From assembly GCF_000018405.1 (NCBI RefSeq), contig NC_009943.1, positions 2,049,001-2,113,000 on the forward strand: a stretch of DNA of 64,000 nt, in the 5' to 3' direction. Made by a program: the position numbers and the translations under genes. Under the pieces are notes generated by a model that was given only the letters and a program-made list of their open reading frames with translations, did no database searches and had not been told where the DNA came from. This document shows, one piece after another, positions 31,097 through 56,933 of this stretch. Each line of letters begins with the position of its first letter. Position 1 is the first letter of the stretch. Source of the stretch: Desulfosudis oleivorans Hxd3. GTDB taxonomy: Bacteria > Desulfobacterota > Desulfobacteria > Desulfobacterales > Desulfosudaceae.

Positions 31097-31834
31097 ATGA
31101 GACGATTCTTTATTGACGCGGCCGCGGCCGCGGGTGCCATCTGCCCCATCACGGGGCCGGACGCCAACCACATCAAAAACGTGCTTCGCATGAAGCCCGG
31201 CGACGCAATATGGCTGTTTAACGGCGCGGGTATGGAATTCAAAGGCGTCATTCACTCCGTTGACAGCGAGGCTGTCACGGTGGAAATCACCGGTGCCTTT
31301 TCCTGTGCCACGGAATCCCCGATCCGCCTGACCCTGGCCCAGGCCTTTCTCAAGGACAAAAAGATGGACGCCCTGGTGCGCCAGGCCACAGAATTGGGCG
31401 TCACGCGATGGATACCGGTGTTTACACAGCGGACCATTCCCCGGCCCGATGCCAGGCGGGTGTCATCAAGAATGGAACGGTGGCAGGCCATTGCCGCCGA
31501 ATCCCTGAAGCAGTGCGGAAGAGGACGGCTTCCGGAAATTGAGCCGCCGATCCTGTTTGAGGACCTGCTCTCCCGGAGTGATGACTGGTCTTTGAAAATC
31601 ATTTTTGCCGACGCTAAGGCACCGGGACTGAACGACACGCTACCCTCTCAGGAGGCTACCGTCCGCCGGGTGCTGGTGATGATCGGGCCGGAAGGCGGGT
31701 TTACGCCTGAGGAAATCGACCGCGCGATAAAAAAGGGGTTTATCGCCGCAAGCCTTGGCCCCCGCATCCTGAAGGCCGACACCGCCACTGTTGGAGCCTG
31801 CGCTATTGTGCAGCACCTGCTGGGCGACATGTAG
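31097..31834 (+). CDS. rsmE: 16S rRNA m3U1498 methyltransferase RsmE
   Basis: 245 residues from ATG 31097, which has GAGGAG six bases upstream; a TTG at 31082 is in frame but poorer. It starts M-R-R-F-F-I-D, the usual RsmE N-terminus, with an H-I-K-N-V-L-R-M PUA-like segment. The SPOUT methyltransferase domain shows K-x-x-K-M-D near 90-96, M-I-G-P-E-G-G-F-T near 194-202 (the knot SAM site) and L-G-P-R-I-L-K-A-D-T-A near 219-229. It methylates U1498 of 16S rRNA. Monocistronic. Confidence 0.95.
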   Translation: MRRFFIDAAAAAGAICPITGPDANHIKNVLRMKPGDAIWLFNGAGMEFKGVIHSVDSEAVTVEITGAFSCATESPIRLTLAQAFLKDKKMDALVRQATELGVTRWIPVFTQRTIPRPDARRVSSRMERWQAIAAESLKQCGRGRLPEIEPPILFEDLLSRSDDWSLKIIFADAKAPGLNDTLPSQEATVRRVLVMIGPEGGFTPEEIDRAIKKGFIAASLGPRILKADTATVGACAIVQHLLGDM

Positions 31835-31912
31835 CCCGAAGCCGCTCTTTTCTTTCCCGGTTGGAATTGTTCTGTATGCTTTCGTAAAAACATGGCCTCT
31901 CCATAATATATT

Positions 31913-31941
31913 TTGTTTTGCGGGAAAAATTGTGGTATAAA
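31913..31941 (+). promoter_or_regulatory. Predicted promoter upstream of the GEMM riboswitch
   Basis: TTGTTT (31913-31918) and TATAAA (31936-31941) with a 17-base spacer. Transcription would begin near 31950, 25-30 bases before the aptamer P1 stem. An AAATGTT/AACATTT palindrome overlaps the expected start region (31941-31958). Confidence 0.5.
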
Positions 31942-31977
31942 AATGTTAAACAACATTTAAAAGCTCTAATCATTCAA

Positions 31978-32058
31978 TTCATGCTAAAGCCAAACTCCGG
32001 GCGACCGGAGGACGGAAAGCAACGGGTCTTAATATAAAGACAGCCGGGCTGCCATGAA
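31978..32058 (+). ncRNA. GEMM (cyclic di-GMP-I family) riboswitch aptamer
   Basis: The GEMM fold can be drawn completely. P1 is TTCATG (31978-31983) with CATGAA (32053-32058). The core G-C-C-A-A-A-C at 31989-31995 corresponds to the conserved GGCAAAC. P2 is CTCCGG/CCGGAG closed by a GCGA (GNRA) tetraloop (31995-32010). The linker GACGGAAAGC (32011-32020) matches GACGCAAAGC. P3 is CGG-GTCTT/AAGAC-CCG (32023-32045), followed by the conserved GGGCTGCC segment. By the Vc2 numbering, position 20 (31989) is G, the cyclic di-GMP-type base, while the usual G21-C46 pair is replaced by C31990-G32015. The riboswitch precedes a secreted DUF1566 protein, a typical GEMM target in deltaproteobacteria. Confidence 0.87.
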
Positions 32059-32071
32059 GATAAGGTATTTC

Positions 32072-32116
32072 AAGCCGGGCTGTCTCTGAAACCAGGACAG
32101 TCCGGCTTTTTATTTT
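32072..32116 (+). terminator. Riboswitch-controlled terminator
   Basis: AAGCCGGGCTGTC (32072-32084) pairs with GACAGTCCGGCTT (32096-32108) through one G-T wobble, followed by TTTATTTT. It sits between the aptamer and the start codon. The 5' arm repeats the aptamer segment AGCCGGGCTG of 32042-32051, so the 3' arm could pair with either. Confidence 0.85.
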
Positions 32117-32142
32117 AGCGGATAAAGGGGAAGGAGGGTGAG

Positions 32143-34383
32143 ATGAAAACCAAAAACCAGTTTTACCTGATTTTGTCCCTGGCCATGGTGGTGATCTTCT
32201 GGCCGATAGCCGCTTTCCCGGCAGCCCCCTTTCCGGTGCCCGATACCGGCCAGGCCACCTGCTATGACGCGGATGGCAATGTGCTTGATCCCTGCCCCGC
32301 AGAGGGTGAAAATTTTTACGGCCAGGATGCACAATACACCATCAACCCACCATCCTATATCAAACTGAATGCAAGCGGGCAGGCACTGGACGATGACGCC
32401 ACCGACTGGGTTATGGTAAAAGACAGTCTGACCGGCCTGATCTGGGAAGTAAAAACCGATGACGGAGATATTCATGACAAGGACAATAGATATAACCTTG
32501 CGGCCGCTCTTTCTTTTATCGCCCAGCTAAATACCGACCAGTTCGGCGGATATACTGACTGGCGTCTGCCGACAAGGTTGGAACTGACTTATATTGTGGA
32601 TTACAGTTACTGCGATCCCGCCATTGATATCAATTATTTCCCGTTCACCACTTATGATTTCGACTGGTCATCGACGCCAAGACCCAATGACGAAACAACC
32701 CCTTCATGGCAGGTCGAATTTTTCTATGGCCATGACTCTTTTGCTTCTCCTGCAAACACCGTAAGCGTACGTGCTGTTCGCGGAGAAGCGATTGGGTCGG
32801 CCAGCCTGGTTGACAACGAGGACGGTACGATCACGGATGAAAGTACCGGCCTGATGTGGAACAAGTTTACTGCCGATTTGAACGATGACACGGTTATTGA
32901 TACAAATGACAAAATGGACTGGCGGGAGGCGCTGGCCTGGTGCGAAAGCCTGGATCTGGCCGGCCATTCCGACTGGCGTCTGCCGACCATCAAGGAATTG
33001 AAATCGATAGTTGACTCCGGCACTGACGCACCGGCCTTTGATACAACCTTCTTCCCGGATACGGTGCCGGACAATTTCTACTGGTCATCGACAACCTATG
33101 CCTCTTCCAAGGATGTCGCATGGGGCATTTTGTCTATGTCTGGCTGGAGCCGCTGGTTTGACAAATCCAGTTCATATTATGTACGCGCAGTCCGTGACGG
33201 GCAGGACGAAAACATCCCGCCCACGGCCGATGCCGGAGAAGACCGTGCTGTCATGGAAGGCACCGTGGCGGCGCTGGACGGTTCCGGCTCCTTTGATCCG
33301 GATGACGGTATTGAGACATACGCATGGGAGCAGACCGGTGGTTCGGCGGTGACCCTGTCCGATGAAACCGCCGCCCAGCCGACCTTTACGGTTCCCGCCG
33401 GCATTCTCGGGCAGACCCTGACCTTTGCGCTGACGGTCACCGATTATGCCGGGGCAAGCGATACGGACAGCGTCACCCTGACCGTGACGGAGTTTGCCTG
33501 CATCACGCTGCCGGACAAGCCGTTACTGATCTCTCCGTCCGACGGCGCCGTCAATGTCAGCCTGACCCCGACGTTGCAGGCCGACGCATACAACGATCCG
33601 GGCGCGTGCAGCACCCATTTTAAAACCCGCTGGCAGATCAGCGACCAGGCCGATTTCTCCGGCCTGACCTATAACGCCAACACCTTTGGTGCTGCCCTGA
33701 CCTCCCACCAGGTAACCAAAATGGTGCTGGAACCCGCTACCACCTACTACTGGCGGGTCAGGTACTGGGGCGACCACGGCCTGAAATCGGAGTGGTCCGA
33801 CGTGTGGACCTTTACCACCGCATCGGACAACCGGGACGCCAACGGCAATGGTGTGCCGGATGACCAGGAGTCTTCCCCGAATACCGATATCAACGACAAC
33901 GGCACACCCGATTCGGAAGAGACCAGCCTCAGGGCGTTATTGACGGCGGACGGGACCGCCGATATCGGCCTGGAGTTTGGCAAGGATATTCTGGCCATTG
34001 CCGTTGAAGCCATGAGTGAAACCGAAATCAGCGGAGACCTGTCCGGCGACTTTCCTTACGGCCTGATCGGCTTCAGGGTGAACACCGCCACACTCGGCGC
34101 AACCGTCAACTTTACAGTTTATATGGCGGACAGGGCACCGGACAGCGCCTTCTGGTATAAGTATGACAATGTCAATGGCTGGTATGACTTTACCGGGCAG
34201 GTGACCTTCAGCGCCAACCGGAAATCCCTGTCATTTACCCTGACGGACGGCGGTACCGGAGACGCGGACGGGGTGGTTAACGGTGTCATTGTTGATCCCG
34301 CCGGCCTGGTTGTGGAAACGGTCGTGCCCTCCGGCGGGGGCTCCGGATCGGGCTGTTTTGTTGAAACAGTAACCGGGTTTTAA
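32143..34383 (+). CDS. Secreted DUF1566 (Lcl-type) protein with PKD-like domain and C-terminal Cys-Phe-Val box
   Basis: 746 residues; ATG 32143 after AAGGAGGG. A signal peptide spans 1-27 (ending I-A-A-F-P-A-A). Two DUF1566 domains follow (about 75-215 and 220-355), each with the L-T-G-L-I-W/ S-T-G-L-M-W opening, D-W-R-L-P-T and the V-R-A-V-R ending. Residues about 360-450 form a PKD/REJ-like Ig domain (P-P-T-A-D-A-G-E-D start). Residues about 455-560 resemble a fibronectin-like domain with T-Y-Y-W-R-V-R. An Asn/Asp-rich thrombospondin-like calcium segment (about 565-595) follows, then a beta domain. The tail is Gly/Ser-rich with G-C-F-V-E-T-V. DUF1566 domains occur in cell-surface and lectin-like proteins. 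Expression is presumably set by the upstream GEMM riboswitch. Confidence 0.88.
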   Translation: MKTKNQFYLILSLAMVVIFWPIAAFPAAPFPVPDTGQATCYDADGNVLDPCPAEGENFYGQDAQYTINPPSYIKLNASGQALDDDATDWVMVKDSLTGLIWEVKTDDGDIHDKDNRYNLAAALSFIAQLNTDQFGGYTDWRLPTRLELTYIVDYSYCDPAIDINYFPFTTYDFDWSSTPRPNDETTPSWQVEFFYGHDSFASPANTVSVRAVRGEAIGSASLVDNEDGTITDESTGLMWNKFTADLNDDTVIDTNDKMDWREALAWCESLDLAGHSDWRLPTIKELKSIVDSGTDAPAFDTTFFPDTVPDNFYWSSTTYASSKDVAWGILSMSGWSRWFDKSSSYYVRAVRDGQDENIPPTADAGEDRAVMEGTVAALDGSGSFDPDDGIETYAWEQTGGSAVTLSDETAAQPTFTVPAGILGQTLTFALTVTDYAGASDTDSVTLTVTEFACITLPDKPLLISPSDGAVNVSLTPTLQADAYNDPGACSTHFKTRWQISDQADFSGLTYNANTFGAALTSHQVTKMVLEPATTYYWRVRYWGDHGLKSEWSDVWTFTTASDNRDANGNGVPDDQESSPNTDINDNGTPDSEETSLRALLTADGTADIGLEFGKDILAIAVEAMSETEISGDLSGDFPYGLIGFRVNTATLGATVNFTVYMADRAPDSAFWYKYDNVNGWYDFTGQVTFSANRKSLSFTLTDGGTGDADGVVNGVIVDPAGLVVETVVPSGGGSGSGCFVETVTGF

Positions 34384-34462: not shown

Positions 34463-34538
34463 GCCGAGGTAGCTCAGTCGGTAGAGCAGGGGACTGAAAA
34501 TCCCTGTGTCGGCAGTTCAATTCTGTCCCTCGGCACCA
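34463..34538 (+). tRNA. tRNA-Phe (anticodon GAA)
   Basis: 76 nt with encoded CCA. Acceptor stem GCCGAGG/CCTCGGC, discriminator A, D-arm with AGCTCAGTCGGTAGAGC, anticodon loop CTGAAAATC giving GAA, and a T-arm with the expected GTTCAATTC. A strong promoter precedes it and a terminator follows immediately. Confidence 0.96.
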
Positions 34539-39621: not shown

Positions 39622-39673
39622 TTTTATCCTCAAGATCCGTTGGTTTTCCATCTATTCCCATAGGCGGAAAACC

Positions 39674-39842
39674 CGTCACCAGGCAGGTCTTCTGACTCCC
39701 GGATCATCCTACCGGCCGCGCCTTCCCACTTCACTTGAATGAAGCAGTGACATTCTGCGGCTTTCGTCCCCGATTACAGCGGCGGGTCCGCTCCCGATTT
39801 TCACGGGATTCCCTTTTATGCTTGATTGCACCTGATAACAAT
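39674..39842 (-). ncRNA. Cobalamin riboswitch
   Basis: Read on the minus strand, the leader has the conserved elements in order: GGTGC near its start (39828-39832), AAAAGGGAATCCCGTGAAAATCGGGAGCGG, ACCCGCCGCTGTAA, a variable GAAGTGGGAAGGCGC arm, then the B12 box AGTCAGAAGACCTGCCTGG (39681-39698). Adenosyl- or other cobalamins bind and normally switch expression off. It controls the TtpC-ExbB-ExbD-TonB-CobQ operon through the terminator at 39577-39621. Confidence 0.93.
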
Positions 39843-39847
39843 TAAAT

Positions 39848-39876
39848 TGAATAGTTAAGCCGGTTCCAAATGTCAA
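39848..39876 (-). promoter_or_regulatory. Predicted promoter of the cobalamin-riboswitch operon
   Basis: On the minus strand TTGACA (39876-39871) and TATTCA (39853-39848), spacer 17 bases, placing the transcript start at about 39840, exactly where the riboswitch begins. Confidence 0.7.
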
Positions 39877-41963: not shown

Positions 41964-43088
41964 TCAGACAGTCTCTTTTGGCACCTTGCTGCACACCTGG
42001 TTGCGACCCTGGGCCTTGCCCATGTAAAGGGCCTTGTCGGCCAGGTCCAGGGCCAGAATCGGCTCGTTGGCATCGTCGGGGATCGCTGAAACACCGATGG
42101 TGATGGTCAGGGCACAAGGGCCCAGGTTGGGGGCGTCTTCGTTGAAGTCGACCTTTTCCACGGCCTGGCGCAGTTTTTCCGCCACACGAATGGCGTTCTC
42201 CCGGCTGGTCTCCGGCAGCAGCACCAGGAACTCCTCGCCCCCGTAACGGGCCACCACGTCAATCTTTCGCAGGCTGGACTCAAAAATACGGGAAATGGTC
42301 TTCAACACCCGGTCCCCCCGAAGGTGACCGTAGCTGTCGTTGTACTCCTTGAAGTGATCGATATCGATCATCATAAGGGAGATGGTACGGCCGTAACGCC
42401 GGGACCGGTAGACCTCCCGCTCGAACCGTTCGAAAAAATAGCGGCGGTTGTACAGGCCGGTCAGCTCATCTTTTCGAATCAGTTCCCGGGTCTGCTGCAG
42501 GGTCATGGCGTTGCTGACCGCAATGGCCACGTTTTCCGCCACCGCGGCAAAAAGCCGCAGGTCGTTTTTTGAAAACCCGTTGACCATGGGTTTATGCGCG
42601 TTGAGAACGCCGATGATAACACCTTCCTGGTTTTTCAGGGGCACGCCCAGGTAACTGCCCTGCTTTATGCCGCTGCCGGGAAAATAGAAAAAATCGCTTT
42701 CCTTGCTGATGTCATCAATCAACACAGGGTGTCCGCCGGACACCACTCTTCCGGAAACCCCGGCCGTGACCTTGATTTCGCCATGCATGACCACCGTTTC
42801 CGGAATGCCGTGACTGGCGCGGATCTGAAGTTTCTGAAGCTCGTCATCCAGAAACATCAGGCAGTACTGGTCCACGTTAAGGGCCTCGCCGATCAGGCCC
42901 ATGACCACCTCAAACAGGTCGGCCACGTGCAGGGATGTGCTCAGGGTCCGGCTCACGTTGTAAAGCGTGTAAAGCTCCAGCACCCGTTCGTTCAAGCTGC
43001 TGTTGATCTCCACCAGCTTTTCATACCGGGCTTTCAGGTCTTCCAGCTCATTGGCCGGGGCTTGCGCGGACTGAATGGCGTCTTCCAT
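41964..43088 (-). CDS. GAF-GGDEF diguanylate cyclase
   Basis: 374 residues from ATG 43088. A short N-terminal coiled coil (about 15-40) leads into a GAF domain (about 45-200, with G-V-S-G-R-V-V and G-V-P-L-K). The GGDEF domain (about 210-370) starts K-D-E-L-T-G-L-Y-N-R-R-Y-F and has an intact active site R-Y-G-G-E-E-F. The inhibitory I-site R-K-I-D lies five residues before it, so product inhibition is expected. It should make cyclic di-GMP from two GTP in response to a GAF ligand. It may supply the signal for the riboswitch and PilZ protein in this window. Confidence 0.92.
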   Translation of the reverse strand: MEDAIQSAQAPANELEDLKARYEKLVEINSSLNERVLELYTLYNVSRTLSTSLHVADLFEVVMGLIGEALNVDQYCLMFLDDELQKLQIRASHGIPETVVMHGEIKVTAGVSGRVVSGGHPVLIDDISKESDFFYFPGSGIKQGSYLGVPLKNQEGVIIGVLNAHKPMVNGFSKNDLRLFAAVAENVAIAVSNAMTLQQTRELIRKDELTGLYNRRYFFERFEREVYRSRRYGRTISLMMIDIDHFKEYNDSYGHLRGDRVLKTISRIFESSLRKIDVVARYGGEEFLVLLPETSRENAIRVAEKLRQAVEKVDFNEDAPNLGPCALTITIGVSAIPDDANEPILALDLADKALYMGKAQGRNQVCSKVPKETV

Positions 43089-56027: not shown

Positions 56028-56933
56028 ATGATCTTTTCGCAAGTCGTTAATATGGTCAACCTCGGTATCGCCGTTCTGGACAAGGACCTGCGGGTGTGCC
56101 ACTGGAACCGGTGGCTGGAGATGCACACCGGCATTCCTGAAAAAACGATTCAAAACACCCCGCTGCTGGATCATTTTCCCAACCTGAACCAGAAATGGTT
56201 TTTGCGGGGATGCAAAACCGTTTTTACCCTGGGCAATGTGGCCTTTTTTTCCCATAAGCTCCACCGCCACGTGCTGCCCATCACCGCGGCCCATCACCTC
56301 TCCCCGGAATTCAAGTTCATGCGCCAGAACTGCACCATCGGCCCCGTCTATTCAGACGACCACAAGGTGGATTACATCTGCATGATGATCCAGGACGCCA
56401 CAGAGGTGGCTTCCCTTGAAACCCGGCTTCTGGCTATCAGCACACGGGACCCCCTGACCGGCCTTTACAACAGGAACTATTTTGAGACAAAACTCAAAGA
56501 AGACCTGGAACGGCACCGGCGGTACGGCGGCGCCCTGTCGGTCATTGTCATCGACATCGACGGCCTGAAACCGATCAACGAAAGCCTGGGCAACCATGCC
56601 GGCGACACGGCCCTGGTGGAGATTGCCGGCCTGCTCACCGGACGGCTGCGCACTGTGGACACCATCGCCCGGTACGGCGCCGACGAGTTCTGCGTTATTC
56701 TACCGGAAACACCGCTTAGCGCGGCCATGCTGGTGGCCGGCCAGCTTCGGGAGAAAGTAGCCCAAGCCGCCCTCTGCCCGGACAAAACCGGCCGGCCCGT
56801 TACCATCAGCATGGGGGTTATGGAATCAGCCGAAAAGGGTGTCAATTGCGAGGATCTGTTAAAAAAGATAAATGACGCCCTGACCACAATCACCGGCAGT
56901 CCGCCGAACAGCCTGATTTCACTTTCGGATTAA
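56028..56933 (+). CDS. PAS-GGDEF protein with altered active-site motif
   Basis: 301 residues from ATG 56028 with AAGGAGG six bases upstream. The N-terminal ~125 residues look like a PAS domain (N-L-G-I-A-V-L-D-K-D-L-R, W-N-R-W-L-E). The GGDEF domain (about 135-295) starts R-D-P-L-T-G-L-Y-N-R-N-Y-F. Its active-site loop is R-Y-G-A-D-E-F, i.e. G-A-D-E-F with the second Gly replaced, while the I-site R-T-V-D is kept five residues before. It may be a weak cyclase or a cyclic di-GMP-binding effector; the sequence cannot decide. It is divergent from the chemoreceptor gene. Confidence 0.9.
   Translation: MIFSQVVNMVNLGIAVLDKDLRVCHWNRWLEMHTGIPEKTIQNTPLLDHFPNLNQKWFLRGCKTVFTLGNVAFFSHKLHRHVLPITAAHHLSPEFKFMRQNCTIGPVYSDDHKVDYICMMIQDATEVASLETRLLAISTRDPLTGLYNRNYFETKLKEDLERHRRYGGALSVIVIDIDGLKPINESLGNHAGDTALVEIAGLLTGRLRTVDTIARYGADEFCVILPETPLSAAMLVAGQLREKVAQAALCPDKTGRPVTISMGVMESAEKGVNCEDLLKKINDALTTITGSPPNSLISLSD

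Follow-up and report, generated by a model that had tools for sequence, protein, structure and literature searches.

A GEMM-I riboswitch with a C21-G46 pair in Desulfosudis oleivorans Hxd3: a probable c-di-GMP-sensing OFF switch for a secreted-looking Lcl_C protein

Introduction

The leader of a secreted-looking protein gene in Desulfosudis oleivorans Hxd3 carries a GEMM-I aptamer with G at position 20 (Vc2 numbering) and a C21-G46 pair at the base of P2, where aptamers of the Vc2 and Cd1 type carry G21-C46. The locus raises the question of which cyclic dinucleotide is sensed by this RNA and in which direction the gene is switched. The analysis covered a window of 64,000 nucleotides, its host genome and further genomes of the same family, order and class. 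The reading preferred here, to which a probability of about 0.65 is given, is a c-di-GMP-sensing GEMM-I riboswitch of the C21-G46/GYRA form acting as a transcriptional OFF switch.

Results and Discussion

Identity of the aptamer

The whole window was scanned with cmscan, and a match to RF03167 (c-di-GMP-I-GGC) was obtained at 31980-32057 of the forward strand (70.1 bits; gathering score, 59; E=1.5e-14). RF01051 gave 65.1 bits at the same site against a gathering score of 35. Both scores are well over the gathering scores, so the match is far above chance, and the segment is a full, genuine GEMM-I aptamer. No second RF01051 match was found in the window genome at E<=0.001. A first-pass annotation of this DNA had proposed a search with the Rfam GEMM models, which these scores supply, and had described an aptamer with G20, a swapped C21-G46 pair and a GNRA-capped P2; the letters and the Rfam alignment bear this description out. 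The segment as annotated runs to 32116 and so includes the hairpin and U-rich tract 3' of the aptamer. The features of the locus are summarized in Table 1.

Table 1. Coordinates of the aptamer, the expression platform and the likely regulated gene in the window
Feature	Position	Strand	Basis
GEMM-I (c-di-GMP-I type) aptamer including P1	31978-32058	+	RF03167, RF01051, folds
P1 strands	31978-31983 and 32053-32058	+	Folds of growing transcripts
A17-A19 (Vc2 numbering)	31986-31988	+	Letters
Base 20, G	31989	+	Letters and Rfam alignment
C21, C22, G45, G46, G50	31990, 31991, 32014, 32015, 32019	+	Letters
P2 arm, closed by C21 (31990)-G46 (32015), with GCGA tetraloop (a GNRA)	31990-32015	+	Alignment, letters
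Junction A47, A48, A49 (32016, 32017, 32018)	32016-32018	+	Letters; conservation from the available text of PMC3764141
P3; its 3' strand (32038-32050) doubles as predicted antiterminator 5' strand	32018-32050	+	Consensus structure, folds
C92, expected Watson-Crick partner for one ligand guanine	32052	+	Rfam alignment, letters
Terminator hairpin, downstream of P1	32072-32108	+	Folds
U-rich tract, predicted termination site	32109-32116	+	Sequence
746-aa secreted-looking protein, likely regulated gene	32143-34383	+	ORF, Pfam

Ligand recognition

The highly conserved positions of GEMM-I aptamers given in the available text of PMC3764141 are G20, C22, A23, A25, G32, A35, G42, C44, G45, A47-A49, C59, G79, G83, G90 and C92; positions 21 and 46 are outside the list in that text. 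The same source names G20, A47, A48 and C92 as the key recognition bases, and all four are canonical in the window aptamer by the letters and the RF03167 alignment. The fold and these four bases are shared with the c-di-GMP-I family RF01051 (Vc2, Cd1), from which the window RNA differs, besides its lower P2 pair, in a GCGA loop in place of GAAA and in its best Rfam model, RF03167. By model score and key bases the RNA belongs to c-di-GMP-I, and selective binding of c-di-GMP is predicted as the most likely outcome.

The cGAMP-binding aptamers provided the nearest comparison for the flipped pair. The crystallised Geobacter aptamer has A14, a P2 starting with C15-G40, A41 and C75, and in the simulations C15 makes a minor hydrogen bond to cGAMP (available part of PMC6274999). 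The lower P2 pair of pilM is U15-G38 (PMC9262584, in the part available). The G at position 46 that the annotation had given for cGAMP aptamers fits both of these. The window RNA shares with the GEMM-Ib aptamers (Gs1761, pilM) a G46-bearing lower P2 pair (C31990-G32015), A47 and C92, but it has G rather than A at position 20 (31989). The presence of G46 is not diagnostic for cGAMP because it is common together with G20.

The doubt raised earlier about the ligand preference stands in part. It is weakened by the canonical core bases and by the frequency of the core, and it persists in that both G21 and C46 are listed as touching the ligand in the Vc2 crystal (PMC7288161, available text) and that point mutations in the lower P2 alter both affinity and selectivity, according to the available part of PMC9262584. 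As such changes can affect ligand preference, the C21-G46 pair may still tune the affinity.

Distribution of the C21-G46 core

The exact core AAAGCCAAAC...GGACGGAAAG, which specifies G20/C21-G46, was found in 121 of the 389 sampled genomes of the class. In 58 genomes of the order, 31 matches were obtained with a pattern left free at positions 20, 21 and 46; the same pattern written backwards, used as a control, hit 4 genomes. Reading of the letters identified 30 of these matches as aptamers, and the remaining one, at 951641 in the window's own genome, as a non-aptamer. The aptamers comprised 17 with G20/C21-G46, 5 with A20/C21-G46, 6 with G20/G21-C46 and 2 with A20/G21-C46. A looser pattern matched 116 of 211 genomes with at least 150 matches (backwards control, 10 genomes). 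Among the matches listed, 131 passed the stem filter, with 91 G20/C21-G46, 28 G20/G21-C46, 8 A20/C21-G46, 2 A20/G21-C46 and 2 others. The filter had removed 19 of the 150 listed matches, from which 15 aptamer-like ones with a C-G or G-C pair were restored, and 2 chance-like and 2 other-pair ones were left out.

C21-G46 is thus the commoner orientation in the class (109 of the 144 scored among the matches listed). The base at position 20 was not associated with orientation, A20 being present in 10 of 109 C21-G46 and 5 of 35 G21-C46 aptamers among the matches listed (p=0.36), in a sample which takes in part of all aptamers through patterns that fix A47. The first-pass annotation had regarded G20 with C21-G46 as an unusual combination; this view is not supported, the core being common in the class and base 20 showing no association with orientation. 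The flipped pair is real and common to cGAMP aptamers, and it alone does not identify the ligand. For want of an association with base 20, C21-G46 was rejected as a marker of the ligand, and it should not be taken as the hallmark of a cGAMP aptamer.

The orientation does track the tetraloop. GAAA was present in 2 of 59 C21-G46 aptamers versus 22 of 25 with G21-C46 (p=6e-15), in a set of 85 distinct loci that is uncorrected for relatedness and of which many were retrieved through the C21-G46 pattern. The novelty of the flipped pair is largely gone, as C21-G46 with a GYRA tetraloop is a common form in the class. The G20/C21-G46 core followed by CAACGGGTC was also present in four named records, namely a Geobacteraceae MAG, two Nitrospirae MAGs and a Desulforhopalus MAG; of two scans of named genomes, one gave these four and the other none. 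No paper on the link between tetraloop and orientation was among those listed by a literature search; orientation may be discussed in the two papers that founded the cGAMP class (Ren 2015; Weinberg 2017). GEMM-I aptamers also occur in tandem, four of them at one locus (L013, G041:C102), and repeated core matches were seen at G019:C75 11311-11664 and at G227:C1 2470563-2471049.

Expression platform and switch direction

The 5' arm of the terminator hairpin (32073-32076 and 32078-32085) can alternatively pair with 32038-32050, forming 12 pairs with one G-G mismatch. The folds of growing transcripts revealed these pairings to be mutually exclusive. Transcripts ending at 32060-32075 gave a minimum-energy fold resembling P1/P2/P3. 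Those ending at 32080-32100 gave an antiterminator, in which the P3 3' strand (32038-32050) is paired with 32073-32085, and in those ending at 32105-32115 the upstream fold was back, together with the terminator 32072-32108. At 32120 P1 opened again in the fold. The upstream fold predicted by the programme, which is blind to tertiary contacts and ligand, is non-native, with 31988-31991 paired to the base of P3 and not in the C21-G46 junction. A consensus scanner run over 31800-32300 did not list the hairpin as a terminator and reported no sigma-70-like promoter.

The switch is predicted to be transcriptional OFF because the P3 3' strand has two possible partners, one upstream and the other in the 5' arm of the terminator. 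Without ligand, the nascent terminator 5' arm would take the P3 3' strand, and the antiterminator so formed would open the aptamer and let polymerase continue through the Lcl_C gene. Bound c-di-GMP, its two guanines read by G20 and C92 and A47 stacked in between, would keep P1 and P3 in place; the hairpin would then form and transcription would stop. According to the available part of PMC9262584, Cd1 is an OFF switch in which an antiterminator competes against the coexisting aptamer and terminator, a competition that is likewise predicted in the window. The same text describes pilM as an ON switch, in which the ligand-stabilised aptamer blocks a terminator drawing on the aptamer 3' strand. Unlike in pilM, the window hairpin is downstream of P1, and OFF is therefore predicted where pilM is ON.

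A sister genome of the same family (G002) has five GEMM-I paralogs, L166-L170, of which four have G20 and one (L168, G002:C27) has A20. They resemble the window in P1, the core and the layout of antiterminator and terminator. An antiterminator intermediate was obtained in all six leaders, the window's and these five, with a conserved hairpin position; L167 still shows the antiterminator at most of the late lengths, and L169 no longer has its terminator at the final length sampled. The gene behind L169 encodes a related Lcl_C protein (48% identity over 448 aligned columns), and the L169 riboswitch is homologous to that of the window. The other downstream genes of G002 differ, encoding transglutaminase-like, outer-membrane efflux and FG-GAP-repeat proteins. 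Since the paralogs are otherwise alike, they offer a clean natural comparison for whether one base changes the signal.

Cyclic dinucleotide synthases

The mark of Hypr enzymes is Ser348 with a GGDE[F/Y] motif (available parts of PMC6456294 and PMC8835794). The window genome has 19 matches to PF00990 (GGDEF), with Asp at the Hypr position in 17 and Asn in 1, the last being below cutoff and unreadable. Ser was found at this position in none of the 18 readable domains. A Ser-type GGDEF as host source of cGAMP was thus not found in a search that covered GGDEF domains. A profile built from eight Ser-type domains gave best E-values over 389 genomes with a gap from about 1e-45 to 1e-49, and the best match of the window genome (E=2.4e-38) falls on the ordinary-GGDEF side. 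Two GGDEF domains are present in the window in the vicinity of the riboswitch, at 41997-42470 (-) and 56442-56888 (+), having GGEEF and GADEF motifs and both with Asp at the Hypr position. Elsewhere in the genome a HAMP protein (L106, 1213-2622, -) has a GGDDF motif with Asn at this position; in Geobacter the Hypr enzyme GSU1937, which is active and also has GGDDF, carries Ser at that position according to the available part of PMC8835794.

On the strong side of the gap were 116 of the 389 genomes, so Ser-type GGDEF domains (FKxVVDxxGHxxGS) are frequent in the class by profile. From these genomes 130 domains were read, the best match of each and 14 second ones; among the distinct Ser-type domains an AGDEF motif was present in 25 genomes and Ala before the Ser in 14. 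In G002, one of 17 GGDEF matches has Ser with a GGDEF motif (L211, G002:C6, a GAF-GGDEF protein); for L208 and L210 Asp at the Hypr position was read by eye. L211 does not have the Asn of the usual FKxxND motif and reads FKAVVD, and the other aligned Ser-type domains likewise do not have this Asn. L211 and the aligned domains are putative cGAMP makers.

A20 aptamers were found in 35 of the 389 class genomes, and a pattern search found none in the window genome. Ser-type domains defined as Gly-Ser/Thr with GGDE[FY] were present in 15 of 35 A20 genomes versus 69 of 354 others (p=0.004). When Ala before the Ser was also counted the figures were 15 of 35 versus 78 of 354 (p=0.011), and with AGDEF motifs also counted 16 of 35 versus 95 of 354 (p=0.029). 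Genomes with A20/C21-G46 compared with those having G20/C21-G46 without A20 gave 10 of 21 versus 26, 31 or 39 of 102 under the three rules (p=0.063, 0.14 or 0.47), and all of these statistics are uncorrected for relatedness, with an outcome that depends on the counting rule. The G20/C21-G46 genomes are themselves enriched in Ser-type domains under the middle rule (42 of 121 versus 51 of 268, p=0.001). In a check of 30 genomes with one protein query, the best match carried Ser for 7 of 15 A20 genomes and for 1 of 15 chosen control genomes; in 8 of the 30 cases that match yielded no domain that was readable or in range. The class-wide link between A20 and Ser-type domains is loose and weaker under fuller counting; it therefore lends little support to the ligand assignment, and the confidence was slightly lowered. 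The synthase inventory speaks only slightly for c-di-GMP as the ligand of the window switch.

Alternative readings

The aptamer could be promiscuous, with G20 on a C21-G46 scaffold binding c-di-GMP and 3',3'-cGAMP about equally, so that the gene would answer both. The window core differs from that of the Geobacter cGAMP aptamer at base 20, and the Vc2 contacts of G21 and C46 and the lower-P2 effects on selectivity noted above are in accordance with such a pocket. Against it, orientation and base 20 vary independently, the key contact bases are canonical and no Ser-type domain was present among the GGDEFs read in the window genome; we consider it improbable. The same degree of doubt applies to a broader proposal, in which the G20/C21-G46/GYRA aptamers would make up a GEMM-I subfamily that is widespread, has been little studied and is a single substitution away from specificity for cGAMP. 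In this proposal the flipped pair would pre-adapt the pocket, the G20 members, the window's among them, would be measurably promiscuous, and the G002 paralogs, which share their genome with a Ser-type GGDEF, would show a natural ligand switch. Less probable still is a c-di-GMP-I-GGC variant with a ligand other than c-di-GMP, which is suggested by RF03167 being the best-scoring Rfam model. The consensus of RF03167 has G20, G47 and C92, and that of RF03168 (c-di-GMP-I-UAU) has U20, A47 and U92; because these bases fit the family names, GGC presumably denotes positions 20, 47 and 92. The window has G, A and C, the ordinary c-di-GMP set. Membership in the GGC variant was rejected on A47 at 32016 despite the score over threshold, and membership in the UAU variant on G20 and C92. 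RF03167 is also the best model, over its cutoff, for A20/A47 aptamers (L062, L064, L078 and L080), and a match to it is therefore no proof of variant membership.

With c-di-GMP retained as the ligand, the direction might be the reverse, the bound aptamer withholding its 3' strand from a terminator. Besides the pilM precedent (PMC9262584, available part), a rough classing of 113 related leaders put 25 in an ON-like group, their terminator overlapping the aptamer 3' strand, and 38 in a group with the terminator downstream; 24 had no terminator and 26 no recognised 3' motif; both the ON-like and the downstream designs thus exist among the relatives. The 3' arm of the window terminator is largely complementary to the aptamer 3' strand, and the classing placed L169, whose gene is related to that of the window, in the overlapping group, against the reading preferred here. 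The window hairpin, however, is wholly downstream of P1, separated by 19 bases from where the aptamer 3' motif ends, and it coexists with the upstream fold at 32105-32115. An ON switch is accordingly thought unlikely, and the OFF switch is the preferred reading.

Regulated gene and its neighbourhood

The 746-aa protein has two Lcl_C/DUF1566 stretches (PF07603, E=3.8e-61), a PKD-type domain and an Ig-like domain, and its start, read by eye, is hydrophobic and resembles a signal peptide. The earlier placement of the riboswitch upstream of a secreted DUF1566 protein is supported by this match and this start. A secreted-looking Lcl_C protein is thereby placed under a probable c-di-GMP switch, which is an ordinary but useful annotation. 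Among the papers searched, none contains both DUF1566 and a riboswitch.

Behind G20/C21-G46 aptamers 60 proteins were scanned, one from the window and 59 from a list of 70 further ORFs; they included 12 matches to PEP-CTERM, 4 to GGDEF, 3 to transglutaminase and 2 to Lcl_C. Behind A20/C21-G46 aptamers, 10 proteins included 2 DUF6160 and 1 Lcl_C. The ORFs were picked mechanically, and some are therefore not true targets. A tRNA gene (34463-34535, +) lies just 3' of the Lcl_C gene, and a cobalamin riboswitch (RF00174, 116.4 bits) is present at 39665-39850 on the reverse strand.
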